Source: a virus. From it: a stretch of 59,668 nucleotides of DNA. This document shows, in pieces, positions 4,067-39,294 of this stretch; the stretch's first letter is position 1, and the number at the start of each line of letters is the position of its first letter. The stretch is taken from positions 39,031 to 98,698 of IMG/VR virus record IMGVR_UViG_3300002518_000001; one strand, written 5' to 3'. A program made the translations under genes and the position numbers. The notes beneath the pieces were generated by a model. It was not told where the DNA came from. It saw only the letters and a program-made list of their open reading frames with translations, and searched no databases.

Positions 4067-4861
4067 ATGTCAAAGCAGGGGCAGCAGGCATTCCCGGTCG
4101 TTCGGGATCGCGAAACATCGGGCAATAGCACAGGTGGTGTTGCACCTCCGGGGTACGGAGCGCACGACAAAGAAGATCATTTGTGGATTATTCCCAAGTT
4201 CGCGATCCACCCGATCACAAAGAGGTTGGAGGCCACGGCAGGGTTGTTTTATCGAATGTGGCCAGAGCATGTCTCTGCGTTGTTGGAGATGCGTGACGAG
4301 GGATGGCCGCACATTGAGATTGTTCGAGTTGCCAAGGAGTTCTGGGGTCGTCAACAAGAGGCGTATCAGAAAGATGAAGCCTTGGTGCAGCAGTACAAAG
4401 AGCAGTCTCACTCGCAGCGAATGCAGGAAGGGCAGAATTTGCAGGCGGGTGCAGCAGGTCTGTTGCCACCGGAAGTGGCACAGCAGATGGAGCAGGGACA
4501 GGAAGATCCCGAATTGCAACGCAGCTTATCTTTAATGCCGACGTCGGAGTATCGTCGGGCGTTGGCAGAGTATAAAGATAAGCATAGCCAGGGTCGTCGG
4601 CACGGTCGGCGTCCGCCATTTACACGAAGTCAGCGAGGTTCTGCCATGGAAACGATGACACGAAGACAGCACCGTTCATGGGGGAGGGGTGGTGGTTTCG
4701 CTGTTCTGACCAAAGCAGATGTCACCGGGGAAGAGGTCGATACGCCGAAAAGATTGCGCGATAAGCGCGAGATGTCTTTTACGCGAAAAGATACAGGCGT
4801 GGCGAATGCTGCGTTCTCGGCACCGTCTGACTCAAATGTTGATCATCGAGGTACGTCGTGA
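4067..4861 (+). CDS. Unidentified pre-portal protein with GFAV-LTK motif
   Basis: 264 residues. An ordered segment, HDKEDHLWIIPKFAIHP, is followed by a Trp-containing helical part and a Gln-rich stretch. The C-terminal third is basic and contains GGGFAVLTKAD, a variant of the GFGV-x-x-K peptide repeated across this window. The stop overlaps the GTG start of the portal gene, so expression is coupled to the portal. A head-completion or virion-internal role fits the position but is not shown by the sequence. Confidence 0.75.
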   Translation: MSKQGQQAFPVVRDRETSGNSTGGVAPPGYGAHDKEDHLWIIPKFAIHPITKRLEATAGLFYRMWPEHVSALLEMRDEGWPHIEIVRVAKEFWGRQQEAYQKDEALVQQYKEQSHSQRMQEGQNLQAGAAGLLPPEVAQQMEQGQEDPELQRSLSLMPTSEYRRALAEYKDKHSQGRRHGRRPPFTRSQRGSAMETMTRRQHRSWGRGGGFAVLTKADVTGEEVDTPKRLRDKREMSFTRKDTGVANAAFSAPSDSNVDHRGTS

Positions 4862-7800
4862 GTCTGTCGAGTTTCTATACGAATTCGGGAAAAGCACAGA
4901 CGATGACGGAGGCTCCTGTCAGGAGAGCTTCTATTGTTGCTCCAGGGTTGCCGGTTGTGTCGGGTGGCAGTAAGGGGCAACCCATTGTTAATGATGGACT
5001 CCGTTTAGTTGGAGGGTTGGATGTGTTGTCTACGAATTTGGGTATGGAGCCCGGATTCAAGGCTGCTAAGAGCCATGGAGCTTCGCAACAACTCAAGCGT
5101 CTCCCCGCAACAACAGACCTCACAGCGGCTCGCGGCCCGCGAGCACGCTTCTTTGACCCTCTTTCCTTGGTCTATGCTTCAGGGTATCGCGATCGTCGCT
5201 TCAGCTTGACCTATGACACGATACGCCGAACGGTGTATCAGTTGTCATTATTGGGCTCTATTATCCTGACGCGGATCTACCAGGTTGCTTCGTTTGCACA
5301 GCCGTATCGCGAGAACCAACAGATTGGCTTCAAAATTGGCTACAAGGACGACACGTATATTCCGCGAGAAGAGCAGCGTCGCGAGATAGTCGAGCTGGAG
5401 AGGATGGTTATGGCGTGTGGGTTTGATCGGAACCCACACAACACGGAGCCTCGCGATGACTTTGAGACATTCTTGAAGAAAATCACCCGCGACTCTTTGC
5501 AGTTTGATCAGATGTGTGCCGTTAAAGGCACTTGGGTTGAGCTTGCTGATGGTACAGGAGTTCCCGTTGAGTGTATTGAATCTGGAATGGTGGTGCGCTC
5601 TCACAATGGGGTGGAGCGAGAAGTTATCCATCCCACCTCACGGCTCTATTCAGGTGAGATGGTTGAGATTCAGGTGCGAGGACAACGGTTAAATGTGACC
5701 ACAGGCCATCCTTTGTTGGTGGCAAAGAGGTCTTCGGTTGATGGAAACGCGGTGGCTTTCAAAGAGCCTGAGTGGATCGCCGCTGGCGAAGTGACAGATC
5801 GGGATTACGCACTCTACCCAAGACCGCTCTTGGGCAGAGAAGATATATCCTTGGATGTATTCGCCCAAGAGCCAAGGAAATTCCCTGTTGGCCCAATGGA
5901 TCGTTTAGTGGAGTTGGCTGATTGTCATCCAAAAACGGCCAGAGATATTCTTTCGGGAACGTACAAGAAGAATGGGCTACTTGTTGCCGAGGTGAAGGCA
6001 CTTGCCAAAGAGCTTGGTGTCTCTATGGAGTACAAGAGAACTTGGCAACCTAAGACGGAATTGACGACTGCTTGGGGAAGGTTTCTTGGGTTGTATTGTG
6101 CTGAAGGGCATGTGCAGGGTACATCGGTACGTTTGACATTCCATGAAGACGAAGCGGGTCTCGTTGAATTCGTCCGAAGCTTTGGTTCACTGTATGGTAT
6201 CGAAAGTTCAGTCACTGAATATCTTGACCGTGCAGGAGTAACGGTTATTCTTTACTCTTCTGCACTCGCTGAGTTTTTGAAAAATCATTGTGGTACAGGC
6301 TCCAGCGAAAAGAGAGTCCCATCATTCATACTTGGTGCTCAGAAGATGGTGAAGGAGCATTTTCTTTTGGGTTACTTGGAGGGTGATGGTCATCTCAAAA
6401 AGACAACAGCCCACTTCACCACGACCTCACGCAATTTGTTTACAGGTCTTCGCCTTCTCTTTGCGGATCAGGGCATCTATGTTGCAGAGGTGAAAGTACC
6501 CTCTGCAAGAGAACAGTGGGACGAACAATATGCTGGTTCGTTGTCAGGCCCGGCTTATCGAACGTTGGCTCGGAGTTTGGGTTTACCTGTGGAGGAACCC
6601 AGTAAAGAGCGCAAGTCGTACCATGTGGGAGAGAAGTTCTTTTATGTGAAGGTCTCTGCTGTTCGCAAGTACGAAGTGGAGAACTTGCGTGTCTTCAATA
6701 TGGAGGTGGAGGAAGACCACAGCTACGTGGCAGAGGGAATTGTCAACCACAATTGTTTTGAGATCGTGCCCGATTCGAAGGGCCGACCTGCTGAGTTCCA
6801 CGCAGTAGACGCAGCAACGATCCGCTTGGCGGCAACGTACGACAACCACAAACCAGGTAAGGCTCCTCGCAAGTTTCATTCGGCAGAGTTCTCCGAAGAT
6901 TGGAAGCAAGAGCGGGACTTGGGCGAAGACTTTGTGGTGCAAGATGACCAGATTCAGACGGTCCAGGTCATTCACGGGAAGATCGAAAACATCTTCACTG
7001 CCGGAGACATGGCGTTTGGGATTCGCAATCCGAGGTCGGATCTGTGGGTCAACGGATATGGTTTCTCCGAGACAGAGATGTGCTTGAGCACGGTTTTGCG
7101 AATGCTGTGGTCCGAAGAGTATAACGCTCGAAACTTCCGCCAGGGGAACATGAGCGGTGGCTTCTTGAACCTGAAAGGGGAGACGTACGATCCCGGAACC
7201 ATCGAGACTTTTAAGCGGGTCATTCGTGCGAATGCATTGGGGTGGGAGAACGCACACCGCGTGCCTATCTTGCAGATCCCTGAAGGCATCGAGTTCGTCA
7301 ATCTCCAGCGAGGCAATCGCGAGATGGAGTATGGTCGTTGGCAAGAGTATTTGCTGAAGATCATCTCTGGCGTTTACCAAATCGACCCGGCTGAGATCAA
7401 CTTTGATATTGGGAAAGCAAGCTCCCAAGGCCAGCCGATGTTCGAGAACAAGGCTGAATGGAAAATCAAGTATTCGAAAGACAAGGGATTGCGACCGCTT
7501 TTGCGTTTCTTGGCTCGGCAGATTTCGAAGTACATCATTGAGCCCCTGAACCCCGATCTGTATTTCGATTTCGTGGGCTTGGACAAGATGAGCGAGCCGG
7601 AAAGGATCGATCTTTTGACGCGACAGGTTACGACGTATTTGACGATCAACGAAGGTCGCGAGAAAGAGGGTCGAGACCCGGTTGTCGGCGGCGACGTGAT
7701 CTTGAATCCTGTTTATTTTCAAGCCAAGGCTCAAGCGGAGCAGGTTCCGATCAAGGCAGACAATCCGATGGCACCGTGGGCGACATCTGGAGACGGAGAC

Positions 7801-8001
7801 CCCTTGGAGCACGGAACGGCACCCGCTATTCCTCTTTATTTTCAGGAGGGAGGTGAGGACTTTGATCCAGCACCACCTCCGATGGACCCCGGTGGGATGC
7901 CTCCGGGGATGGAGCCTCCGGGGGGTGGGGCGGGCATGCCAATACCCGGCATGATCGGTAGTCCCGGAGGACCAGGGCCAGGAACACCAGGGGCTATCTA
8001 A
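4858..8001 (+). CDS. Phage portal protein interrupted by an intein
   Basis: 1047 residues including an in-frame intein (residues 220-632). The spliced extein would be 634 residues. Portal features include LSLVYASGYRDRRFSLTYDTIRR and the segment running from DSLQFDQM into CFEIVPDSKGRPAEFHAVDAATIR, typical of the portal core. FGIRNPRSD, the Asn/Gly-rich crown region and VYQIDPAEINFD follow. The tail is a low-complexity Gly/Pro/Met run. Portal dodecamers form the DNA entry vertex and dock the terminase. The GTG at 4858 was chosen because GAGGT lies five bases upstream and it overlaps the previous stop; the next ATG (4903) has no clear site. The intein sits exactly in a conserved core loop, so splicing is required for function. 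Confidence 0.93.
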   Translation: MSLSSFYTNSGKAQTMTEAPVRRASIVAPGLPVVSGGSKGQPIVNDGLRLVGGLDVLSTNLGMEPGFKAAKSHGASQQLKRLPATTDLTAARGPRARFFDPLSLVYASGYRDRRFSLTYDTIRRTVYQLSLLGSIILTRIYQVASFAQPYRENQQIGFKIGYKDDTYIPREEQRREIVELERMVMACGFDRNPHNTEPRDDFETFLKKITRDSLQFDQMCAVKGTWVELADGTGVPVECIESGMVVRSHNGVEREVIHPTSRLYSGEMVEIQVRGQRLNVTTGHPLLVAKRSSVDGNAVAFKEPEWIAAGEVTDRDYALYPRPLLGREDISLDVFAQEPRKFPVGPMDRLVELADCHPKTARDILSGTYKKNGLLVAEVKALAKELGVSMEYKRTWQPKTELTTAWGRFLGLYCAEGHVQGTSVRLTFHEDEAGLVEFVRSFGSLYGIESSVTEYLDRAGVTVILYSSALAEFLKNHCGTGSSEKRVPSFILGAQKMVKEHFLLGYLEGDGHLKKTTAHFTTTSRNLFTGLRLLFADQGIYVAEVKVPSAREQWDEQYAGSLSGPAYRTLARSLGLPVEEPSKERKSYHVGEKFFYVKVSAVRKYEVENLRVFNMEVEEDHSYVAEGIVNHNCFEIVPDSKGRPAEFHAVDAATIRLAATYDNHKPGKAPRKFHSAEFSEDWKQERDLGEDFVVQDDQIQTVQVIHGKIENIFTAGDMAFGIRNPRSDLWVNGYGFSETEMCLSTVLRMLWSEEYNARNFRQGNMSGGFLNLKGETYDPGTIETFKRVIRANALGWENAHRVPILQIPEGIEFVNLQRGNREMEYGRWQEYLLKIISGVYQIDPAEINFDIGKASSQGQPMFENKAEWKIKYSKDKGLRPLLRFLARQISKYIIEPLNPDLYFDFVGLDKMSEPERIDLLTRQVTTYLTINEGREKEGRDPVVGGDVILNPVYFQAKAQAEQVPIKADNPMAPWATSGDGDPLEHGTAPAIPLYFQEGGEDFDPAPPPMDPGGMPPGMEPPGGGAGMPIPGMIGSPGGPGPGTPGAI
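5515..6753 (+). mobile_element. Intein with LAGLIDADG homing endonuclease, inside portal
   Basis: 413 residues from Cys220 to Asn632 of the precursor. The N-terminal splicing block starts CAVKGTWVEL, block B is TTGHPLLV (TxxH), and block G ends EGIVNHN followed by Cys+1, so all nucleophiles for class 1 splicing are present. Two LAGLIDADG-type helices, LGLYCAEGH and LLGYLEGDGH, give a DOD homing endonuclease. A copy of the 15-bp palindrome lies inside it at 6206-6220, read as SSVTE between the two helices. All key residues look intact, so both splicing and homing may be active. Confidence 0.93.
6206..6220. repeat. 15-bp palindrome, copy 3 (inside intein)
   Basis: GTTCAGTCACTGAAT within coding sequence, translated SSVTEY in the endonuclease region of the intein. 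One of five coding copies, all in the same frame. Confidence 0.8.
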
Positions 8002-27683: not shown

Positions 27684-27764
27684 GCCAAGGTGGTGGAATG
27701 GCAGACACGCCGGATTCAAAATCCGGTGCCTCACGGCGTGAGGGTTCGAATCCCTCTCTTGGCA
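27684..27764 (+). tRNA. tRNA-Leu(CAA)
   Basis: Complete cloverleaf: acceptor GCCAAGG with TCTTGGC, anticodon loop TTCAAAA reading CAA, a long class II variable arm and T arm GAGGGTTCGAATCCCTC. CCA is not encoded. It reads TTG, the leucine codon used most in this phage outside the scaffold and capsid genes, which explains its retention. Confidence 0.95.
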
Positions 27765-27769
27765 TAGTC

Positions 27770-27823
27770 AACACTCGACATTCTCGTGGAACGGGACTGT
27801 CCACAGACGGAGTGTCGAGTGTT
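27770..27823 (+). terminator. Long hairpin between tRNA genes
   Basis: An 11-bp perfect stem (AACACTCGACA with TGTCGAGTGTT) encloses a smaller hairpin (GTGGA with TCCAC) and is followed by TCTACTT. It may be a terminator or an RNase processing structure separating the first two tRNAs. Confidence 0.6.
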
Positions 27824-27844
27824 TCTACTTAGTGTTTCTATTTA

Positions 27845-27917
27845 GGGTGTGTAGCTGAATGGGTTAGCGGGAGTCTTTAAAACTCTGTCCAAGTGGGTTC
27901 AATTCCCACCATGCCCG
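27845..27917 (+). tRNA. tRNA with UUA anticodon (ochre-suppressor type)
   Basis: Cloverleaf: acceptor GGGTGTG with CATGCCC, D stem GCTG with TAGC, anticodon stem GGAGT with ACTCT around the loop CTTTAAA, and T arm GTGGGTTCAATTCCCAC. Position 33 is T and positions 34-36 read TTA, which pairs with the stop codon UAA. A lysine tRNA would need one more T. Many genes in the window end in TAA with tight overlaps to the next gene, so wholesale TAA recoding is unlikely. The charging amino acid is unknown. Confidence 0.72.
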
Positions 27918-27939
27918 TGAGAGCAATTATGTGGAAGTT

Positions 27940-28239
27940 ATGGCAAAAAACGCAGACGAGTTGAGTCAAGCTGAAAAGGATCATTTTTACGAATTCTTAG
28001 TTGCCCATACGGGTGACTTTCTATGCTCTTGTTGTGGCCGAGATAAATGGCAAATTATGCCTGTCCGAGCACATCTACCGTCTTTGAATTTCAGGGATGG
28101 TGTCGGAACACATATGGTCCCTGTATATATGGTTTATTGTTCGAACTGTGCCAAGTTCGAGACTTTTCACGCAGCGGTTGTGCGAGAGTGGGAAAGCCAG
28201 CTTCCTCCACCAGCAGAGACATCGAACTTGGACGTCTAG
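27940..28239 (+). CDS. Small zinc-ribbon protein
   Basis: 99 residues. Two cysteine knuckles (CSCCGRDKW and CSNCAKFE) about 40 residues apart form a treble-clef or zinc-ribbon fold, with a conserved-looking VPVYMVYCSNC strand between. The ATG at 27940 was chosen over an in-frame GTG nine bases earlier; neither has a strong ribosome binding site. It sits between tRNA genes. Nucleic-acid binding is likely, but the target is unknown. Confidence 0.7.
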   Translation: MAKNADELSQAEKDHFYEFLVAHTGDFLCSCCGRDKWQIMPVRAHLPSLNFRDGVGTHMVPVYMVYCSNCAKFETFHAAVVREWESQLPPPAETSNLDV

Positions 28240-28291
28240 CGAACGTTTGTGTTAGTGTTGATCTTTCAAAATAGAATAGAAAACATCTGAT

Positions 28292-28389
28292 GGATGGGTA
28301 GCTTATTTGGATAAAGCACTCTGTTTCTTTCAAACCGCCCGTTTCAAGGCCACAGAGAGATGTAGGTTCGACTCCTGCCCCATTCACCA
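28292..28389 (+). tRNA. tRNA-like gene with a 29-base anticodon loop
   Basis: Acceptor GGATGGG with CCCATTC, D stem GCTT with AAGC, T arm GTAGGTTCGACTCCTGC and an encoded CCA are all normal. The anticodon stem CTCTG with CAGAG is perfect but encloses 29 bases instead of 7. Either a 22-base insert must be removed, or the gene is not decoding. Identity cannot be assigned; different cut points give different anticodons. Confidence 0.65.
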
Positions 28390-28400
28390 TTTTATTTTTG

Positions 28401-28746
28401 AGTTTTGCGCTGTGGTTGGAAGACACAGCGGCTTCGCGGGATCGTAATGTTCGCGGGGTCGATAGAATCGAGGTCGTAAGCTCGATAGATTGGGTGGAGC
28501 CGAAAGGTCGTAATTCGTTTAGTTCCGTGGGGAGATGCCGCTCTTTAGAAAATTTACCCTTGGGAGGGTCATTTTCGAGAGGGACGCATGTTAAGCACCG
28601 TTCGCAAACGTAGAGCTTCGGCGATGAGCGAGAACGACTCGCCTCCAACGAGATTGTGGATCTCTCACGGGTGACCGCGAGAACCAAGTAAGAGCAATCG
28701 AGTTGGTTTCAATCTAGGATTGTGGGTTCGAACCCCACCAAAACTC
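28401..28746 (+). tRNA. Interrupted tRNA-like gene, about 270-base insert
   Basis: The 5' end AGTTTTG and the 3' CAAAACT pair as a 7-bp acceptor. A D arm (CTGT with ACAG, GG in the loop) follows the 5' end, and the T arm GTGGGTTCGAACCCCAC precedes the 3' end. Between them lie about 270 structured, GC-rich bases with several small hairpins and a GCCGAAAGGT-type element. No group I intron core (P, Q, R, S) is recognisable. An unrecognised intron, or a tRNA-capped structured RNA, are the alternatives. Confidence 0.5.
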
Positions 28747-28978
28747 ACTGTTTATCAAGTCGTGCCCTTAAGTGTTGGTGCAGACCGGAGCAAAATGGGA
28801 AAAGACTCCGTGCCCTTGAACAATATGCCCTTATTGGGGGTGCGGTGGGGCCTTTTCGAGAGAGAGGGTTCTTCCGTGCACATGGCCATGGCAGCTTGGC
28901 GGGAAACCGAACAAGTGTCTCATATTGTGGGGTGTTCCTAGAAACCGAAACACTCACGTACCTTGAAAGAGGTGCACC

Positions 28979-29046
28979 GGGATCATAGATCGGGAGATCG
29001 CTCGCAGATACGGCGGGAGGTGCAGGTTCGACTCCTGCTGGTTCCA
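28979..29046 (+). tRNA. Atypical short tRNA-like cloverleaf
   Basis: Acceptor GGGATCA with TGGTTCC (three G-U pairs), a tiny D arm GATC-GGGA-GATC, anticodon stem CTCGC with GCGGG, and T arm GCAGGTTCGACTCCTGC. The anticodon loop AGATACG lacks the U at position 33. The 230 bases upstream hold no gene I can support. This may be a decayed tRNA, or the 3' half of another interrupted one whose 5' half I did not find. Confidence 0.45.
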
Positions 29047-29101
29047 CCCTTCTTGGTGCTTTTACTCCTCCTGTTCCTGGGGTGATAACATCGAGAAGCT
29101 T

Positions 29102-29172
29102 GCTGCATTCGTCTAGTGGTAAGACGCCACCCTGTCACGGTGGAATCAGGAGTTCGATTCTCCTATGTGGCG
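29102..29172 (+). tRNA. tRNA-Asp(GUC)
   Basis: Acceptor GCTGCAT with ATGTGGC, D stem GTCT with AGAC, anticodon stem CCACC with GGTGG and loop CTGTCAC giving GUC, T arm AGGAGTTCGATTCTCCT. CCA is not encoded. Discriminator G, as usual for aspartate. Confidence 0.95.
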
Positions 29173-29177
29173 TGATT

Positions 29178-29250
29178 GCCAACGTAGCTCACTTGGTAGA
29201 GCAGTTGATTCGTAATCAACAGGTACGCGGTTCGATCCCGCGCGTTGGCT
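29178..29250 (+). tRNA. tRNA-Thr(CGU)
   Basis: Acceptor GCCAACG with CGTTGGC, D stem GCTC with GAGC, anticodon stem GTTGA with TCAAC and loop TTCGTAA giving CGU, T arm CGCGGTTCGATCCCGCG. Five bases after tRNA-Asp, so probably cotranscribed with it. Confidence 0.95.
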
Positions 29251-29340
29251 CTTTTCTTTCTCGCACTGTCGGGTCTGCTGGTGGTTTGTAGGTTATTTCG
29301 TCAGTGTCTTCTCGTCTGGTGTGGGAAAGAAATCTTTATG

Positions 29341-29355
29341 GTTCAGTCACTGAAC
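29341..29355. repeat. 15-bp palindrome, copy 10
   Basis: GTTCAGTCACTGAAC, perfect consensus, followed by TTTTT and five bases before the tRNA-Glu gene. Confidence 0.88.
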
Positions 29356-29360
29356 TTTTT

Positions 29361-29434
29361 GGCTCCATCGTCTAACTGGCCAGGATACCGGGCTTTCATC
29401 TCGGAAATCATGGGTTCGAGACCCTGTGGAGTCG
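29361..29434 (+). tRNA. tRNA-Glu(UUC)
   Basis: Acceptor GGCTCCA with TGGAGTC, anticodon stem CCGGG with CTCGG and loop CTTTCAT giving UUC. The T stem has only three clean pairs (GGG with CCC) plus mismatches, so it is weaker than in the other tRNAs. A hairpin (CTGTTC with GAACAG) follows directly and may aid 3' processing. Confidence 0.85.
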
Positions 29435-29542
29435 CTGTTCGGGAGACCGCAAGGTGCGGTAGGGAGAACAGAAAGCTTGTCTTTCACAATTACAGTTGTC
29501 CACTATTCCTGTGGGAGGGTTCCCCGCCTCTCGAATAATTTT

Positions 29543-29728
29543 GCAGAGTTATCCAAATTGGAAAAGGGAATCCCTGAACAGGGATGGTTCATCGAAGAGA
29601 TCGCTGATCGACGTGCCTCACTATGGGACAAAAGCGTTGTATTCGACGCATACAAACGGCAGCGAAATACCGGGGCAATCGTGGACGCACGAGATTGAGC
29701 TTTGGGGGTTCGAATCCCTCACTCTGCA
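29543..29728 (+). tRNA. Interrupted tRNA-like gene, GAA-type anticodon arm
   Basis: Acceptor GCAGAGT with ACTCTGC pairs perfectly. A D arm (TCC with GGA) and a hairpin ATCCC-TGAACA-GGGAT follow; if the loop is taken as CTGAACA the anticodon is GAA (Phe). The T arm GGGGGTTCGAATCCCTC comes only after about 110 further bases. The insert therefore lies in the variable region, not the anticodon loop. A short reading frame runs through it but overlaps the RNA and is not called. Confidence 0.5.
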
Positions 29729-29761
29729 TTCTGCATTCCCAAGAGATAGGAGATCCAGGAT

Positions 29762-30022
29762 ATGAAAGTTTATGTTGTGATGGTGGATGCTTATGGCATT
29801 GAAACGACTATCCAAGGCCCGGCTTTTCGCGATCCGGAGAAAGCGATTGAGAATGCTCGCGAGCTTGTGATGGATCATTGGGATGGAGAGCATGAGAGAG
29901 AGGTCCGGAGGGCTGACCCGTCGGAAGAGGAGCGTCTTTCGGCACAGGGATACCCCATCTTCTCTGAGACCTACAATTATGAGAACGACGCAGTGAAGGT
30001 TTTTGCTGTCGAGTTACAGTAA
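29762..30022 (+). CDS. Unidentified 86-residue protein
   Basis: Start preceded by GGAGATCCAGG. An acidic, compact alpha/beta protein beginning MKVYVVMVDAYGIE and ending with a beta strand KVFAVELQ; helical middle (PEKAIENARELVMDHWD). Small proteins of this type are common in phage accessory regions. Its stop overlaps the next start (TAATG), so the two are coupled. Confidence 0.82.
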   Translation: MKVYVVMVDAYGIETTIQGPAFRDPEKAIENARELVMDHWDGEHEREVRRADPSEEERLSAQGYPIFSETYNYENDAVKVFAVELQ

Positions 30023-30279
30023 TGGCCATCGACGACGCTATGTTGTGGCTCAAGGGTCTCACTTATTCCCAGCGAGACAAGGTCAAAGATTGGATTAAGG
30101 AGACTTTCGGCGGAGGCAGCTTGCCCATTTTAGTCGAGCAAGCATTCTTACACATGCCACCCGAAGTGATCGGCGGCGTATACCAAGGCATCCCAGAATT
30201 TGAAGAGAGAAGCCGGGAGTTCTCGGAGAGAGAGATTCTTCGGTTTAAAGAAGAACACTATCCACAAAAAACAAAATAG
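30022..30279 (+). CDS. Unidentified 85-residue protein
   Basis: Coupled to the preceding gene by a TAATG overlap. Helical and charged, with DKVKDWIKETFGGGSLPILVEQ near the middle and a C-terminal charged helix. No domain recognised. It ends 20 bases before the tmRNA, so the tmRNA may be processed from the same transcript. Confidence 0.82.
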   Translation: MAIDDAMLWLKGLTYSQRDKVKDWIKETFGGGSLPILVEQAFLHMPPEVIGGVYQGIPEFEERSREFSEREILRFKEEHYPQKTK

Positions 30280-30298
30280 GAGGAATGGTTTCCAGTGC

Positions 30299-30713
30299 GG
30301 GGGTGAACAGGTTTTCGATCATCCAAGTACGCTCATAGATAGCACGCCGAGGATTCAGGTGGCCTCGTAAAAAACCTGAAAACCAAGCAACTGCCAACAG
30401 CAATTACTACGCCGACAAGGTTTGGAGCTTCGGAGTCGCTTGCGACGTCGCTGCACCCTGCCACGTTAGCAACCAAGAAGTCGCCCTCTTCGCGTAAGAG
30501 GTCGCCCCTGCGTCACCTTTCCTGTGGGTGATGTGGGGAACTAAGCAGGATAGCGGTGGAGCAGTGGTCATGCCTGCCTGTGAAAAAAGACCGTTCGCCG
30601 GGACGTCCTTTTCTCTTTGTGGATGCCCGGATGAACTGAGAGCAAGGAGATAAGCGTGTAGAAGTCTGGAGTTGTCTTGAGGTGAGACGCGGGTTCGATT
30701 CCCGCCACCTCCA
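30299..30713 (+). ncRNA. ssrA: Transfer-messenger RNA (tmRNA)
   Basis: About 415 nt. The 5' GGGGGUG pairs with 3' CACCUCC and places the G3-U70 wobble (30301 with 30710) that alanyl-tRNA synthetase requires. The T arm is GCGGGTTCGATTCCCGC in the GAGACGCGGG context typical of tmRNA. PK1 is recognisable from GCCGAGG and GGCCTCGTAAAAAACCTG, nearly identical to the E. coli arrangement. The tag frame resumes at GCC 30393 (or GCA 30387), reads ANSNYYADKV and ends VALFA before TAA 30495-30497, 34 residues in all, which is long. CC follows the discriminator, but the terminal A is not encoded. tmRNA with SmpB frees stalled ribosomes and tags the product for proteolysis. Confidence 0.92.
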
Positions 30714-30994
30714 CCGGCACTGTGAGCGTTGGCTTGCTGTTTGGGTTCAAAGGCTCAGGCAGTGACCCACGCTGGAACTTGCGACAAAATTCATTTACTT
30801 TGACCCTGAACGTTTTTTTGTTGCGAGGTGTGTCTGAAATATGACCACAGTGCTTGTTACTTGTGCGGGAACACATGGGTGTTCAAGGGGTCCGAAAGAC
30901 CCTGGCCTCGTTGCAAGGTCAATACTCGTCGTGAAGAGCGGCGATAGTCCATGTAAGAGCATCGTGTGCAACCGCGATGTCGTTCCCGCTCCCT

Positions 30995-31064
30995 GTGGGT
31001 GTAGCTCAGTTGGTAGAGCGAGGGTCGCTCCCTGTCGGTGGTTCGAATCCACCTGCCCACACCA
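30995..31064 (+). tRNA. tRNA-like gene with a shortened anticodon arm
   Basis: Acceptor GTGGGTG with TGCCCAC, D arm GCTC with GAGC around AGTTGGTA, T arm GGTGGTTCGAATCCACC and an encoded CCA are all standard. The anticodon region is six bases short: a 4-bp stem AGGG with CCCT around a five-base loop TCGCT. A 10-base direct repeat, CGCTCCCTGT, occurs at 30987 and again inside this arm at 31026, as if the arm had been replaced by copying. The 280 bases between the tmRNA and this gene hold small hairpins but no gene I can support. Confidence 0.6.
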
Positions 31065-31156
31065 TTTGCTATGGAAGATGTTCGCGGGTTGTGTGTGCAG
31101 CCCACTTCCGGATATGCTATTCAAAACTTGGGTCTTCGCGAGGAGTAGTTTAGAGG

Positions 31157-31315
31157 ATGAAAGTTAGTGTCGATAGAGTGAAGAACGCTCTGAATAGATT
31201 GGAGATTGTTGCTCTCCGGGAAAGCAAGCGTCGTCGTCGCAAGTGGCTTGTGAGGACGTTTGTTATGGGTGTTCTCTTCTTTTTCTTTGTGTTAGTGGTA
31301 ACTCTTCTCCTGTAG
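31157..31315 (+). CDS. Small basic membrane protein
   Basis: 52 residues starting ATG 31157, with AGGAG 11 bases upstream. A charged N-terminal helix and RRRRKW patch precede a C-terminal transmembrane helix (FVMGVLFFFFVLVVTLLL), giving positive-inside topology. The last codons overlap the first ten bases of tRNA-Asn, which is unusual but possible. Holin-like or envelope-remodelling roles cannot be distinguished. Confidence 0.55.
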   Translation: MKVSVDRVKNALNRLEIVALRESKRRRRKWLVRTFVMGVLFFFFVLVVTLLL

Positions 31316-31378
31316 CTCGATTGGCAGAGCGGCGGACTGTTAATCCGTAGGTTGTGGGTTCGAGTCCCACCAGGAGAG
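31306..31378 (+). tRNA. tRNA-Asn(GUU)
   Basis: Acceptor TCTCCTG with CAGGAGA, D stem GCTC with GAGC, anticodon stem CGGAC with GTCCG-type pairing and loop TGTTAAT giving GUU, T arm GTGGGTTCGAGTCCCAC. Discriminator G. CCA not encoded. Closely resembles bacterial tRNA-Asn. Confidence 0.95.
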
Positions 31379-31473
31379 CAATTGCCCCTTTTGATCTGTT
31401 CGTTGGTCGGATTAAAGGGGGCATTTTTGTATATATGGTCAAAGCCTGTTTTGTCTTGAATAGGAGAGGAGCC

Positions 31474-32232
31474 ATGTGGATACGCGGGTGGGATGCCCTG
31501 ACTGATATAGAGAAAAAACTCTGTCGTATTTACTTTGAACGGAGAGCTTGGTGCTATGCTCCGCGTCATTCCCGGTACGGAAAGTATGGCCACAAGGGTG
31601 TCAAGTTCGCACGGAAGTGGCACAAGGTGGAGAACTTTCTGACTTGGGCGATCCCTCGATACAAAGCGGGGTGGTGGTTGATCCGCTTGGATTTATCCAA
31701 AGGGTATGGTCCAGAGAATTGCGATTTCATTGATCCGAAGCAGGCGATCCGGCAACGTCAAAACCACAAGCTCACGCAGTTGACGGCATTTGGTGTGTCG
31801 AAGTCACTGTCGGAGTGGGCAGAAGACGACCGAGTGATTCATCCTGCGACGACGCTATCGACACGAGTGGGTGCTTTGCGAAAAGCTCTGGCTCTGAGCT
31901 TGGACGATCCGATCGGCGTGGAAGATGCCGAGTACTTGCTGGTGGCCCCGCGTCGCCAAGGCGTCAGGTTGGACTTTCCGAGTCTTCGGGAGAGTGAGGC
32001 GTTTGCAAGCGAAGCGATATGGACTGCCGAGCAGGAAGCTTTGGCAGTGGAGAAGCACTTGCCGGTGGTTGGGATTGTGGCTCCGGAGCCACCGACTCCG
32101 GAGCCAGAGTTAGATCTTTCAGAACATCTGATGCGCGAACTCGATGTGATTGAGATTGCCTTGTCGGCGGTTGAGGAAGAGGGTCATCTTTACAGCGTGC
32201 TCCGAGGAGGTTTGGGGGTTCTCCTCAAGTAA
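31474..32232 (+). CDS. HNH-like phage DNA-binding protein
   Basis: 252 residues with AGGAGAGG upstream. Residues 25-95 follow a pattern common in phage HNH-type and related proteins: YGHKGVKFARKWHKVENFLTW, then IRLDLSKGYGPENCDFIDPKQAIRQRQN, equivalent to the LDRIDNNGnYePeNCRWAT box. The histidines expected for an active HNH site are not obvious. A following helical region (LTQLTAFGVSKSLSEWAEDDR) is HTH-like. Such proteins are often free-standing homing endonucleases or their decayed relatives. Its place next to the tRNA island fits, because such islands are homing targets. Confidence 0.7.
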   Translation: MWIRGWDALTDIEKKLCRIYFERRAWCYAPRHSRYGKYGHKGVKFARKWHKVENFLTWAIPRYKAGWWLIRLDLSKGYGPENCDFIDPKQAIRQRQNHKLTQLTAFGVSKSLSEWAEDDRVIHPATTLSTRVGALRKALALSLDDPIGVEDAEYLLVAPRRQGVRLDFPSLRESEAFASEAIWTAEQEALAVEKHLPVVGIVAPEPPTPEPELDLSEHLMRELDVIEIALSAVEEEGHLYSVLRGGLGVLLK

Positions 32233-32261
32233 ACAAGGACTCGACGTATTACAATGCATCT

Positions 32262-32384
32262 GTGGCCTTGAATGTGGCGGTCAAGGCGATCTCCCGGATG
32301 ATGCCAAGGTATGTGGTAGAGTATGTGGAGGAGAACTTGCCAGGTGTTTTGGACGATTTCACTCAGAGGTTGAAAGATGAGTAA
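32262..32384 (+). CDS. Possible 40-residue protein
   Basis: A GTG-started frame reading MALNVAVKAISRMMPRYVV and ending RLKDE, overlapping the next start as ATGAGTAA. The overlap style and even codon use suggest a real gene. The ribosome binding site is poor, and the frame is open further upstream without a canonical start, so the N-terminus is uncertain. Confidence 0.4.
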   Translation: MALNVAVKAISRMMPRYVVEYVEENLPGVLDDFTQRLKDE

Positions 32385-32574
32385 GCTCAGTGAGACTATT
32401 GCTCGGTACTGCCTTGAGGAAGGGAGTATTGTGGACTGCGAGGTGTTCGAGGATTGGATTGCGGCAGCAAGAGAGCAGGAGCGAACGATCGAGGAGATCG
32501 TCCAACAGAGCATGGAGCTTCGGGCAGAGTTGGAGACCGTCAAGCAGCTTGGTCGAAATGGGATTGTGTCGTGA
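32377..32574 (+). CDS. Unidentified 65-residue helical protein
   Basis: Acidic and almost entirely helical (SETIARYCLEEGSIVDCEVF, then QERTIEEIVQQSMELRAELE). Coupled to the following gene by a TGATG overlap. No domain recognised. Confidence 0.7.
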   Translation: MSKLSETIARYCLEEGSIVDCEVFEDWIAAAREQERTIEEIVQQSMELRAELETVKQLGRNGIVS

Positions 32575-32870
32575 TGTGCGATCGCAGCGATTATGTGGTG
32601 AATCGGGCTTTGATCTTGGTCGAAGCAGTGGACAGTTTGAAGGTTCTCAAGTACGAGCTTTGCCCCAATGGAACGACTTTGGAGTTGCGTCCCGGTGGCC
32701 AATGGTCGATTTGTTATCGCGGTCAGGTCTTGGGAAGGTGGGGTGAATGGGAGCCAGAGCCAGAGCGAGAGCCAAGCTTTCGCGATGTCGCGTACCTGTA
32801 TCGTTGCCAATATGGATCGGAGATGGAAGCGTTGGAGGTATGGAATACGTTTGTAGGGGGTGGGGGATAA
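32574..32870 (+). CDS. Unidentified 98-residue protein
   Basis: The ATG overlaps the previous TGA. Compact alpha/beta protein with LKVLKYELCPNGTTLELRPG and an acidic proline-containing loop (EPEPEREPSF). No known domain. The longer in-frame start upstream lies inside the preceding gene and is rejected. Confidence 0.72.
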   Translation: MCDRSDYVVNRALILVEAVDSLKVLKYELCPNGTTLELRPGGQWSICYRGQVLGRWGEWEPEPEREPSFRDVAYLYRCQYGSEMEALEVWNTFVGGGG

Positions 32871-32892
32871 TGCGAACCAGGAGATGGAAAAG

Positions 32893-33069
32893 ATGCCAGA
32901 TTGGTTGATCGGAATATTGGTCGTTGGGGTTCTTTTTGGGACTCGACCCGGACGTTGGATGTCGGCAATGGTTCTTGGGTTATTGTTGGGCCGGGGGTTC
33001 TCGAACTTTGTCCACGACTACAAAGGTCTTGATTGGAGCGAGGAGTACAAAGACCTTGGCAAAGATTGA
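32893..33069 (+). CDS. Small two-helix membrane protein
   Basis: 58 residues from ATG 32893, nine bases after AGGAG; longer in-frame starts at 32860 (GTG) and 32884 (ATG) are possible. Two hydrophobic helices (WLIGILVVGVLFG and MSAMVLGLLLGRGF) separated by a basic turn (TRPGR), then an acidic tail. Class II holins have this layout, but no lysin is adjacent, so holin identity is only a guess. Confidence 0.65.
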   Translation: MPDWLIGILVVGVLFGTRPGRWMSAMVLGLLLGRGFSNFVHDYKGLDWSEEYKDLGKD

Positions 33070-33235
33070 TTTCTCTTCTTGACGGGTGATGTGATCGGGG
33101 TTACTCATTAAGTATCGCCCAGAACGCGAGAGGAAAAGAACGCCAGAAGAGGAAGCTAAGGCCATGAAGAGACCAGACACGTAACTTCACCAGAAAGAAT
33201 TCCCGCCACCTCACAGGGACGCCGTATACGTCATT

Positions 33236-33538
33236 GTGCGGCAAGATCTCCTCCCTGCCCAAGTAGCTGTCCAGGCGTGCCACGCAGTTTTGGAGGCTAC
33301 TCGTCAATTTGTCTCTTCCGAGACACCCCACCCGAACATCATTGTGTGCCAGGTTCCCACCGATCAAGATCTTCTTGCGTGGAGCTTGGCGTGTGATCAG
33401 GCTTGTATCCGTATTGCGGAGTTCCGTGAGCCGGATATTGGCGATCAGCTAACAGCGATCGCCACAGAAGTGGTGCCCCACAAGCACCGTCGTTTTTTTA
33501 AAAAGCTGTCTTTGTACCGACCGACGTTCAGTCACTGA
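33236..33538 (+). CDS. PTH2-like peptidyl-tRNA hydrolase
   Basis: About 100 residues resembling the Pth2/Bit1 family: RQDLLPAQVAVQACHAVLEA matches the K-G-K-VAAQCSHA helix, IIVCQVPTDQDLLAWSLAC matches the central strand and helix, and DIGDQLTAIATEVVP matches the C-terminal strand. Pth2 cuts peptidyl-tRNA after abortive translation. The first strand (AVYVIV) lies upstream of the first usable start, GTG 33236, and the frame is open back to 33185 without ATG, GTG or TTG. Either a rare start is used or the N-terminus is lost. The stop TGA lies inside a palindrome copy. The link to tmRNA and tRNAs suggests ribosome rescue. Confidence 0.65.
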   Translation: MRQDLLPAQVAVQACHAVLEATRQFVSSETPHPNIIVCQVPTDQDLLAWSLACDQACIRIAEFREPDIGDQLTAIATEVVPHKHRRFFKKLSLYRPTFSH

Positions 33539-33624: not shown

Positions 33625-34245
33625 ATGAGAAGACCAGAGATTGACACGAAGACCCAAATCGAAAGCACACCGAGCTTTGAGCAGCCCACACAGGAAGTGG
33701 GTGACGAGATCGCCCACCAGGGAACGTGGGGGTGGCATGCCCTCTCGCAGGTGGACTTCCGCAAGCTCAAGTACGTTCATAAGATGCTGTGGGAGGCGTA
33801 TTTATTGTGGCGAAGGGGGAAGATTTGCCCGAAGATTGTGCCGTTCGTTACCTACTTCAATGATTGGAGAGAGGTGTGCGAGCATGTGGGGAACATGCAT
33901 GCACCAAAGGCTCGCATGCGGCAGTATGTGGGCAAGGGCATGCCCATTGCGAAAGGCAATAAGGGCAGCGGAGAGGACTTCACAGGGGCGTGGTTCGAAT
34001 TGTCGGGGGTGAAGGATACTCGTGTTCATGACGCCGAGGGGCGTCGCTTGAGCGGAGGGTGGGAGGTGTTCTTTAGGGATGCATGGAAGATTGTGGAGGC
34101 GTTGCGGTGGGCAAGGGTTCCGCATGACACACCGACGGACGCGGTGACGTTCGTTCCGCCGCACCGGGAGGTGTGGGAGGCGTTGTATGAGAAGCTTACG
34201 AGTCCAGCGGCTTACTGTGGTGAATCCACTGTGCAACCCGAATAG
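33625..34245 (+). CDS. Unidentified 206-residue protein
   Basis: Start preceded by CCAGGAG. Folded and rich in Trp and basic residues (KYVHKMLWEAYLLWRRGKICP; KARMRQYVGKGMPIAKGNKGS). No domain recognised. The last 50 bases overlap the end of the leftward pncB gene on the other strand, a convergent overlap with no room for terminators. Confidence 0.75.
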   Translation: MRRPEIDTKTQIESTPSFEQPTQEVGDEIAHQGTWGWHALSQVDFRKLKYVHKMLWEAYLLWRRGKICPKIVPFVTYFNDWREVCEHVGNMHAPKARMRQYVGKGMPIAKGNKGSGEDFTGAWFELSGVKDTRVHDAEGRRLSGGWEVFFRDAWKIVEALRWARVPHDTPTDAVTFVPPHREVWEALYEKLTSPAAYCGESTVQPE

Positions 34246-35377
34246 CGTCGGTATCTCCGGTGATCTTTCCCGGTTCGTCCGAGAGCTTGACGACCGGGAT
34301 TCCGTCGCAGTGCGTCATCTTGATCACGATATTGAGTGGCGTGGGTCCAAAGTTGTTGGTCAGGTTGGTGCCGATACCAAAGGCCACTTGAGCGTCGATC
34401 TCGTTGGCTTTGAGGAAGCTGCTGATGTGACCCACCTGTGTGGGGTTGAGGCCATCGGAGAAGATGAAGGTCTTGGAGGAGAGGTCGATTCCGAGTTCAC
34501 GGTAGTGTCGGGACATGCGGCTTGCCCATGCCAAGGGGCACCCGGAGTCGTGGCGAACGCCGCTGTAGCTTCGAGCGAGGAGACCGTCGAAGTCTCGCAG
34601 GAACGATTCGGTGCCAAAGGTGTCTGTGAGGGCGATGCTGACGTTTCCCTTGAAGGTGTCGAGCCAATCTTCCAAGACGTATCGGTTGGCGTACCTCACT
34701 CCTTTCAGGGCCGAGTATCCCATGAAGATCTCGTGGGCTTGGGTGCCGATCGGTTGCAGGTCATGCCGGTGGGCCAAGTGGACACAGCTTGTGCCCAAAA
34801 AGGTGGCGAAGAGGGGGGATCGTTTCGCGAAAAGATCGACGACTATGTCGTGTCCCAAGCTGCTGTGGCGTCGTCGAAGTCCGAAGTCCGCAACGGGTTG
34901 GCCGATCAGTTGAGAGATCTTCTGCGAGGTTCGGACTCGATAGACTCGTTTTGCGTTCTCGATGGGGTCCACGCAGTGTTGGAAGTAGAGTTCGCTGATT
35001 TGGGCCATAAGGGGCACTTCCCAGAAGATGGCACTCTCCCACGGACCCTCGACCGTGAGGTCCAAGACGCCGTCTTCGGATACGCAGAACTCGACTTGAT
35101 TGGCGTCGAACTTGAAGTTTCGCATGTAATCCAAGAAGTGGGGGGGCAAATAGGGGCATCGTTCCCGCAGGAAGGAGATCTCTTCCGGGGTTGTCCGCAG
35201 GTACTCCATGCTTTGGAGGAAGGTGCGGAGGCCATTGACGAACTTGTCAGTATTGAACAGGTATCGGGGGTCACGGTCGAAGAATTTGTATTTTACCGGA
35301 GTGCCGGGGCAGTTGCGAAGGACGAACGCGGCCATGTTGAACTTGTACAGGTCGTTTTCGAGAATGGATCGGATCAT
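34196..35377 (-). CDS. pncB: Nicotinate phosphoribosyltransferase
   Basis: 393 residues, close to the 400 of E. coli PncB. Family motifs: NDLYKFNMA at the N-terminus, PVADFGLRRRHS (about 161-172), GTQAHEIFMGY (211-221) with the phosphorylated histidine at about 215, DTFGTESFLRDF, and YSGVRHDSGCP. It makes nicotinate mononucleotide from nicotinate and PRPP, the entry step of NAD salvage. ATG 35377 has AGGAG upstream. It is preceded by a hairpin repeat and the 36-bp leader element. NAD is consumed by the three ADP-ribosyltransferases encoded here and by several host defences, which may explain a phage copy. Confidence 0.95.
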   Translation of the reverse strand: MIRSILENDLYKFNMAAFVLRNCPGTPVKYKFFDRDPRYLFNTDKFVNGLRTFLQSMEYLRTTPEEISFLRERCPYLPPHFLDYMRNFKFDANQVEFCVSEDGVLDLTVEGPWESAIFWEVPLMAQISELYFQHCVDPIENAKRVYRVRTSQKISQLIGQPVADFGLRRRHSSLGHDIVVDLFAKRSPLFATFLGTSCVHLAHRHDLQPIGTQAHEIFMGYSALKGVRYANRYVLEDWLDTFKGNVSIALTDTFGTESFLRDFDGLLARSYSGVRHDSGCPLAWASRMSRHYRELGIDLSSKTFIFSDGLNPTQVGHISSFLKANEIDAQVAFGIGTNLTNNFGPTPLNIVIKMTHCDGIPVVKLSDEPGKITGDTDAIRVAQWIHHSKPLDS

Positions 35378-35439
35378 AAGACGCTCCTGGTGATTGGGTT
35401 GCGAATGGCACCTGTGAAGAGGAAGAGGGGTGGGAGAGG

Positions 35440-35615
35440 GAGAGAACGGAGCCCAAGGACTGTCGCGTCTTGCTTGTGCGCTGCGGTGCCGAGGCACCAA
35501 CTAAGCCATTGAAGCGTCATTGCCGTTGGCTTGGGCTCCGTTCTCTCCCTCTCCTGTCGCTTGTAATGTCTTTCTCTCCGTTCTATTTTGCGGTGCACTC
35601 ACCAAGGGCAGGGAG
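35440..35615 (-). repeat. Long hairpin repeat plus leader, copy A
   Basis: About 176 bp, nearly identical to 37341-37520. A 14-bp stem (GAACGGAGCCCAAG with CTTGGGCTCCGTTC) encloses about 70 bases containing a second stem, GGTGCC-GA-GGCACC, which in copy B is GGTACC-GA-GGTACC, a compensatory change. On the leftward strand the 36-bp leader element (35562-35597) comes first, then the hairpin, then pncB. The repeat begins inside the last codons of the upstream gene, which gives that gene the same TPCPW end as its counterpart. Confidence 0.9.
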
Positions 35616-38949: not shown

Positions 38950-39294
38950 TTATCGGACTTGTTTGGCAGCGACTGCCGAGAGGGCCATCAGATGCTTGCA
39001 GAACATGCTGTTTGCGTTGTGGTCCGGGCAGGAGCAGTGATGCCACCCGTTCGACCCAATGATGACGTGGTGAATGTTGGAGGCATCGACCCGAAGGTGG
39101 GCGGCGAGGCCAACTTGCGATTCGTGTCGTTTGATCCAGAAGGAGACAGAGTTGTCGCCTTTGTCGCGGGCTTGGCGAATGATGTCGCGGGCTTTTTGAA
39201 TCCGGCGATTCATCGCCTCGCCGACTTCGCCGGTCAGTTGTTTGAAGTTTTGAACCATATGTACGAGGGATTGGGCGTGTTCTCGAAGGGTCAT
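38950..39294 (-). CDS. SWIM zinc-finger protein
   Basis: 114 residues with GGGAG upstream. A helical N-terminal half is followed by a SWIM-type motif, CSCPDHNANSMFCKHLMAL (CxCxnCxH), preceded by a strand VIIGSNGWHH. SWIM fingers bind DNA or protein partners. It is the first gene after leader element C (39331-39366) and so heads the leftward block. Confidence 0.8.
   Translation of the reverse strand: MTLREHAQSLVHMVQNFKQLTGEVGEAMNRRIQKARDIIRQARDKGDNSVSFWIKRHESQVGLAAHLRVDASNIHHVIIGSNGWHHCSCPDHNANSMFCKHLMALSAVAAKQVR

Follow-up and report, generated by a model that had tools for sequence, protein, structure and literature searches.

The stretch of viral DNA analysed here (59,668 nucleotides, hereafter the window) corresponds to positions 39,031 to 98,698 of the IMG/VR phage record IMGVR_UViG_3300002518_000001, which is 104,653 bases long. 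It holds a tRNA cluster, a transfer-messenger RNA (tmRNA) and, downstream of both, a gene whose product resembles peptidyl-tRNA hydrolases of the PTH2 type. The reading frame of this PTH2-like gene is interrupted near its start by a TAA, the codon that one of the clustered tRNAs is predicted to read. The features on which the analysis turns are as follows:

27845-27917, + strand: tRNA-Stop(tta), anticodon UUA, ochre suppressor type (ARAGORN; Rfam 52.2 bits; 7/7 acceptor pairs)
30299-30716, + strand: tmRNA (Rfam RF00023; 132.7 bits, cut-off 47; full model length, 1-374 of 374)
33164-33184, + strand: short head ATG AAG AGA CCA GAC ACG, then an in-frame TAA at 33182-33184 (sequence and frame)
33164-33538, + strand: PTH2-fold gene from ATG 33164, with 117 residues after the in-frame TAA and TGA as terminator (translation)

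A first-pass annotation of this DNA had named a tmRNA, an ochre-type tRNA and Asn, Glu, Thr and Leu tRNAs, and all of these are present, the last four as Asn(GUU), Glu(UUC), Thr(CGU) and Leu(CAA) by ARAGORN/Rfam. Judged by its sequence, the tRNA at 27845-27917 is a well-formed predicted ochre suppressor that should read TAA. What the annotation overlooked is the in-frame TAA that ties this tRNA to the PTH2-like gene. It had opened the gene at GTG 33236, which is residue 18 of the modelled chain and falls within strand beta-1 (residues 13-19), so that open reading frame (ORF) is too short; the frame extends past the TAA to ATG 33164. Six codons, the ATG included, precede the TAA, and between the TAA and the PTH2 domain there is no ATG, GTG or TTG in frame. 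The PTH2-like gene (33164) and the next gene (33625) open with similar codons (ATGAAGAGACCAGACACG and ATGAGAAGACCAGAGATTGACACG).

The AlphaFold model of the window protein has a predicted local distance difference test score (pLDDT) of 92.7. VIA-align matched it with Z of 13.6-14.9 to six Pth2-type PDB entries (3erj, 1q7s, 2zv3, 1wn2, 1rlk and 1xty), the first unrelated entry scoring Z 4.3, and on this predicted structure a PTH2 fold is confirmed. Against the PF01981 profile the protein scores 19.8 bits, below the cut-off of 23; 33 of 42 family members match the profile at E 0.01. The annotation had called the protein a PTH2-like hydrolase, and the second half of that name fares less well than the first. 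The lysine of the GK-x-x-AQ motif, the canonical PTH2 catalytic residue, is retained in one of the 175 phage loci surveyed below and is otherwise Q (74), Y (65) or another residue (35), the site being placed by aligning the profile to 2zv3. At the position of the catalytic aspartate we found E in 163 loci and D in 5, and did not locate the position in 7. Because the canonical lysine is replaced in 174 of 175, hydrolase activity is unproven and we do not class the protein as a proven PTH2 hydrolase; peptidyl-tRNA hydrolysis by these phage proteins is putative.

The window phage has a major head protein of SPO1 type (phrog_752) with ~40% identity to its Exiguobacterium phage counterpart. A head-protein scan with the single sequence retrieved no relatives, but an alignment-based scan did retrieve some. 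The tmRNA model matched 8 of 50 related records at E 0.001, with G036 alone passing the cut-off. In a PTH2 search of 43 records, the window's own included, G021, G036 and G040 scored above the Pfam cut-off and the window's own record below it. The PTH2 gene lies within a tRNA cluster in both G021 and G036, in the latter together with a tmRNA, so the association is more than chance; the co-occurrence in other phages on which the first-pass annotation had hung its idea does recur. In G036 the gene begins GTG GAA AAG TTT TAG and a tRNA(CUA) lies ~53 nt downstream, whereas in G021 it has a normal start and ARAGORN found no suppressor tRNA around it within the fetched 16-20 kb. This contrast, TAG and CUA in one relative and neither in the other, led us to survey the pairing of stop and anticodon more widely.

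The survey comprised 241 loci, drawn from three protein-based scans, 12 loci of named or public phages and the window. Clustering at 90% identity merged 66 loci into others and left 175 clusters, for each of which one locus, the longest, was scored. Stops were placed relative to a PTH2-domain profile trained on 81 of the 241 loci, and a stop counted as early if it was in frame, lay no more than 9 codons behind a start and was itself followed by no further start. Loci were fetched through stretches of the domain protein, not through leaders or tRNAs, so an association between stop and tRNA is not built in. Only best-ranked loci were taken, partly from scans seeded with early-stop genes, flank lengths vary and many contigs are fragmentary. 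All P values were computed without regard to relatedness. When the PTH2 alignment was used to scan species genomes, for which one peptide pattern was usable, it yielded a single locus, L389. There, on a Sulfotelmatobacter metagenome-assembled genome contig (8302-8705) that may be phage or host, a tRNA array accompanies a PTH2-like gene whose ATG start is normal, and a tRNA(tta) lies 47 nt past the match.

An early in-frame stop is present in 84 of the 175 non-redundant phage PTH2 loci, window included (80 TAG, 4 TAA and no TGA), a proportion that is not a census given how the loci were chosen. Of the 84, 69 have a suppressor tRNA within the locus, and its anticodon matches the stop in every one (65 TAG with CUA, 4 TAA with UUA; nominal P 1.2e-6). 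Internal in-frame stops, some of which share a gene with an early stop, follow the same rule, with ten TAG/CUA pairs, one TGA/UCA pair (L307) and one TAG without a suppressor. Wherever a locus holds a suppressor tRNA, mismatches between stop and anticodon number zero. The other 91 loci lack such an early stop, and 26 of them also lack a suppressor tRNA. Suppressor tRNAs occur in 134 of the 175 PTH2 loci compared with 1 of 20 distinct tRNA-bearing control loci without PTH2, these controls being few and mixed (L112 and L117 counted as one); among loci with a single tRNA, that tRNA is a suppressor in 40 of 47 with PTH2 and in 0 of 8 without. A scan for HNH genes, intended as a further control, yielded 13 loci. 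As a control on the gene side, the major head gene lacks its start in none of 80 loci and has an internal TAG in one.

Could the arrangement in the window be an accident, with a decaying or wrongly sequenced PTH2 gene and a coincidental match to tRNA(UUA)? The low family score, the weak Shine-Dalgarno sequence, the longer head and several odd tRNAs nearby would suit such an account. We regard it as quite improbable, since the domain is intact with a high-confidence fold and TAA is paired with tRNA(UUA) in three other clusters (L183, L265 and L288).

The nearest suppressor lies less than 1 kb from the gene in 45 of the 69 early-stop clusters that have one and in 54 of the 65 others. Other tRNAs accompany the suppressor in 88 loci, and in 65 of these no tRNA is nearer to the gene than the suppressor. 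All seven acceptor pairs are formed in 138 of 154 suppressor tRNAs. Since base 73 varies among them (A 67, G 43, T 36, C 8), these tRNAs probably do not all carry one amino acid. The gene's own terminator also bears on the pairing: it is TAA in 0 of 9 UUA loci as against 78 of 122 CUA loci (P 0.0002), and TAG in 5 of 122 CUA loci as against 8 of 41 loci without a suppressor (P 0.004). The terminator of the PTH2-like gene thus avoids the suppressed codon. Median dN/dS (nonsynonymous to synonymous substitution rates) is 0.156 for early-stop genes, computed on 66 unsaturated pairs after the removal of 63 saturated ones, which indicates selection on the protein encoded after the stop.

Counting the start, two codons precede the early stop in 49 of the 84, three in 19, four in 7 and other numbers in 9; the head opens with ATG in 83 and GTG in 1, and all 49 two-codon heads read ATG-NNN-stop, with any of 20 codons in second position. 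In the L156 group (13 loci) the ATG and TAG are constant and the one or two intervening codons variable. The base after the early stop is A in 57, G in 23, C in 4 and T in none, and the commonest following codons are ATT (36), GTA (12), GTT (8), ATC (5) and ATA (4). Many of these are near-cognate starts, and this raises an alternative in which ATG-NNN-TAG is a leader, ribosomes restart at a near-cognate codon behind the stop (ATT, GTA, GTT, ATC or GTG), and the suppressor is unrelated. Mycobacteriophages with GTG after the stop and a fitting Shine-Dalgarno sequence lend it some weight. Yet the upstream start has a Shine-Dalgarno match 3-10 nt ahead of it in 43 of the 84 and the codon behind the stop in 0, an ATG at that place would evolve easily, and re-initiation leaves both the tracking of stop type by anticodon and the matched internal stops unexplained. 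We therefore hold it to be unlikely.

GAP32, BF, CBB, Arash and RaK2 were looked at after the pattern had been fixed. In GAP32 and CBB the PTH2-like gene is headed ATG GCA CAA TAG, in BF ATG ACG CAC TAG and in Arash ATG CTG TAG, and in all four ARAGORN finds a CUA tRNA ~1-4 kb away, the one in Arash being annotated as tRNA-Phe. Existing annotation has no gene at the PTH2 match in Serratia phage BF and only a fragment in Salmonella phage Arash; an early stop with suppression explains why the first went unannotated and the second was cut short. ME3 reads ATG ACT TAG ATT, with a CUA tRNA upstream. In XacN1 and RAS14, ATG AAG TAG stands before a frame of ~183 codons leading into the PTH2 domain, and CUA tRNAs occur elsewhere in the genome; the two lie outside the 84 because other starts follow the TAG. 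The long XacN1 frame ending in the domain is ORF364, and in both phages (L209, L210) the PTH2 domain forms the C-terminal part of a longer protein. These seven cultured phages accord with the pattern of stop and suppressor. In RaK2 the gene has a normal ATG, which a TAG precedes, and the two pattern matches in the RaK2 record gave no confirmed CUA tRNA. Normal PTH2 starts are also seen in two T4-like phages, ZPAH1 and phiAS5, with no suppressor tRNA in the 5 kb read.

Suppressor tRNAs invite the question of an altered genetic code. Jumbo phages with altered codes often carry them, according to the available part of PMC13037316, and the Code-15 type of recoded phage described there likewise encodes a CUA suppressor tRNA. 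Unlike those phages, the present ones give no sign of genome-wide recoding. TAA, TAG and TGA each terminate long ORFs in the window's record, and in the 14.1 kb of its 104.7 kb covered by homologues the in-frame stops met were all antisense to the gene there. In the 84 loci, reading TAG as sense does not extend the ORFs (median ratio 1.02, compared with 1.17 for TAA and 1.04 for TGA), and none shows TAG recoding by the criterion applied. Genome-wide ochre recoding was accordingly rejected as a candidate, and that the whole phage reads UAA as sense is barely credible. Suppression would thus be aimed at a gene rather than reflect a changed code, although other targets in uncovered genes are possible.

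We consider it likely that the suppressor tRNA licenses the PTH2-like protein, the two genes together acting as a switch. An in-frame stop, the lack of any start between it and the domain, a matching anticodon and selection on the protein beyond the stop are all demonstrated at the level of sequence; from them we infer that suppression occurs and makes the level of PTH2-like protein follow the activity of the suppressor tRNA, so that the protein is probably made only when the phage's own suppressor works. In the window, ribosomes would start at ATG 33164 and meet UAA after six codons. Without the phage tRNA(UUA), a release factor would terminate translation and leave only a hexapeptide; with charged tRNA(UUA), some ribosomes would continue into the PTH2-fold domain. 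Other phages would do the same with UAG and tRNA(CUA), mostly at ATG-NNN-TAG, and in one case with an internal UGA and tRNA(UCA). As to benefit, suppressor tRNAs may drive ribosomes past stops, and stalled short chains tend to leave as peptidyl-tRNA; a rescue protein, often accompanied by tmRNA, would then be produced in step with the suppressor activity that creates the need, giving a balance.

Several observations weigh against the switch. By the criterion used, a suppressor occurs without an early stop in 57 CUA, 5 UUA, 2 UCA and 1 CUA+UCA clusters, and 15 early-TAG clusters have no suppressor in the locus. Two of the latter (L324, L329) have one elsewhere in the record, in a record-wide search whose tRNA pattern fits 104 of 141 known CUA tRNAs. 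Within the 175, early stops are not significantly more frequent with a suppressor nearby (69/134) than without (15/41; P 0.11), so the main support is the match in identity between stop and anticodon, not presence versus absence. In four mycobacteriophages translation could begin at a GTG immediately behind the TAG, a position that the Shine-Dalgarno spacing suits better in Breeniome and Phabba. The window's own gene has a weak Shine-Dalgarno sequence and a six-codon head, with its tRNA(UUA) 5.3 kb upstream; taken alone, it could still be a sequencing error or a decaying gene.

The first-pass annotation had seen in tmRNA, PTH2 and tRNAs side by side a rescue kit for when ribosomes stall or tRNAs are cut, with the ochre tRNA as just another of the tRNAs; the role it proposed against anticodon-nuclease defences is conjectural. 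Its interpretation is partly supported, through co-occurrence in relatives and in cluster C mycobacteriophages (PMC5966550, in the passages available), but it offers no reason for a matched stop in the PTH2 gene, and ARAGORN reports a tmRNA in the fetched flanks of only 21 of the 175 PTH2 loci, far fewer than hold a suppressor tRNA. As the whole explanation it seems improbable to us, though it and the switch can be true together. The trio itself is not new, since the same passages already report a PTH2-like gene and tmRNA within tRNA arrays, as in the window, and suggest that extra rescue factors may be needed. Cluster C mycobacteriophages differ from the window in that the PTH start may lie after the stop; in four mycobacteriophages a CUA tRNA follows the PTH gene, and the suppressor link is absent from the PMC5966550 passages matched by our search terms. 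The new point is the in-frame stop that ties the suppressor tRNA to the PTH2-like gene; we found no link between a phage PTH gene and a suppressor tRNA in a search of open-licence PMC text, a scope that takes in neither bioRxiv nor most subscription papers. In the parts of the sources available, the authors describing CUA suppressor tRNAs encoded by XacN1 (PMC5852040) and a suppressor tRNA in phage Summit (PMC9022506) identified no target genes; for XacN1, the present analysis finds ATG AAG TAG ahead of its PTH2-domain frame. For the opal case Atu_ph07, the passages available name two PTH genes (PMC6102473).

A tentative extension, which we think possible but doubtful, is that the ATG-NNN-stop head acts as a minigene sensor of the bar type. 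The lambda bar minigenes, AUG AUA UAA, are toxic under Pth deficiency (PMC8012679, in the part available), and 49 of the 84 phage heads share their plan of start, one codon and stop. Unlike in lambda, the minigene here would be the head of the PTH2-like gene itself, and the six-codon head of the window is not bar-type. Such a head would sense termination, peptidyl-tRNA drop-off and free charged suppressor tRNA, and the PTH2-like protein would recycle short peptidyl-tRNAs, the suppressor's first, in a feedback loop setting rescue capacity. Release factor 2 (prfB) regulates itself by a programmed frameshift at an early in-frame stop. That system too gates a translation factor by an early in-frame stop, but the bypass there is a frameshift and here would be a dedicated suppressor tRNA. 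According to its title, a 2002 study by Ueda that PMC8012679 cites has tmRNA assisting read-through by suppressor tRNAs.

The window's tmRNA was not reported by ARAGORN as run, and is therefore outside the 21 counted above. Its putative tag frame, read by eye, is long (~34 residues) and ends in TAA, the codon that the phage's own tRNA(UUA) would read; ARAGORN names no tag. Where ARAGORN reports a tmRNA in a locus with a suppressor (20 loci), the tag never ends in the suppressed codon, to which the window would be an exception. The remaining members of the tRNA cluster are as follows:

27684-27764, + strand: tRNA-Leu(CAA) (ARAGORN; Rfam 58.3 bits)
28292-28389, + strand: tRNA with an anticodon-loop insert, identity uncertain; default call Arg(UCU), or Ala(UGC) carrying a 22-nt insert if inserts are allowed (ARAGORN, Rfam)
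28979-29048, + strand: atypical tRNA-like element with a short, four-base D-loop, called Tyr(AUA) (ARAGORN; Rfam 38.3 bits in a 4-kb scan)
29101-29173, + strand: tRNA-Asp(GUC) (ARAGORN, Rfam)
29178-29251, + strand: tRNA-Thr(CGU) (ARAGORN, Rfam)
29361-29435, + strand: tRNA-Glu(UUC) (ARAGORN, Rfam)
29542-29729, + strand: possible tRNA-Phe(GAA), interrupted near its anticodon by a 111-nt insert (ARAGORN, inserts allowed)
30995-31061, + strand: tRNA-like element with a shrunken anticodon arm (Rfam 46.9 bits; absent from ARAGORN output)
31306-31379, + strand: tRNA-Asn(GUU) (ARAGORN, Rfam)

ARAGORN counts 8 tRNAs, all at 27684-31379 (27.7-31.4 kb of the window), and none on stretches covering the remainder of the 104,653-base record. 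The Rfam scan of the whole window likewise gives 8 above the cut-off, among them 30995-31061; 28979-29048 passes only in the 4-kb scan. The odd members (28292-28389, 28979-29048, 29542-29729 and 30995-31061) may be decayed, spliced or mimic tRNAs, and at E 1 no Rfam family besides tRNA and tmRNA accounts for those with inserts. By eye, 28400-28746 resembles one tRNA split by ~260 nt, its 5′ acceptor half lying at ~28401 and its 3′ half, in which the T-arm is clear, at ~28722-28746; Rfam gives no intron match at this site.

Between the tRNA cluster and the PTH2-like gene lies an HNH endonuclease gene (31354-32232; phrog_3377, E 1.7e-20), and the tRNA clusters of G021 and G036 also hold HNH-type genes. 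Further along, a nicotinate phosphoribosyltransferase gene (34196-35500, − strand; PF04095, E 5e-55) points to nicotinamide adenine dinucleotide (NAD) salvage in the phage. The portal protein gene (4858-8001; phrog_12) has a long insertion, intein-like by eye, that weakly matches an endonuclease family.

The proposed switch would name a conserved, specific target for phage suppressor tRNAs, and would do so in cultured phages amenable to testing. If the sensor reading is true, these loci would represent a widespread type of genetic switch, each with a single target gene licensed by a tRNA dedicated to it. Should the licensing be real, phages that use the ordinary code would offer a clear example of regulation through nonsense suppression of a specific gene.

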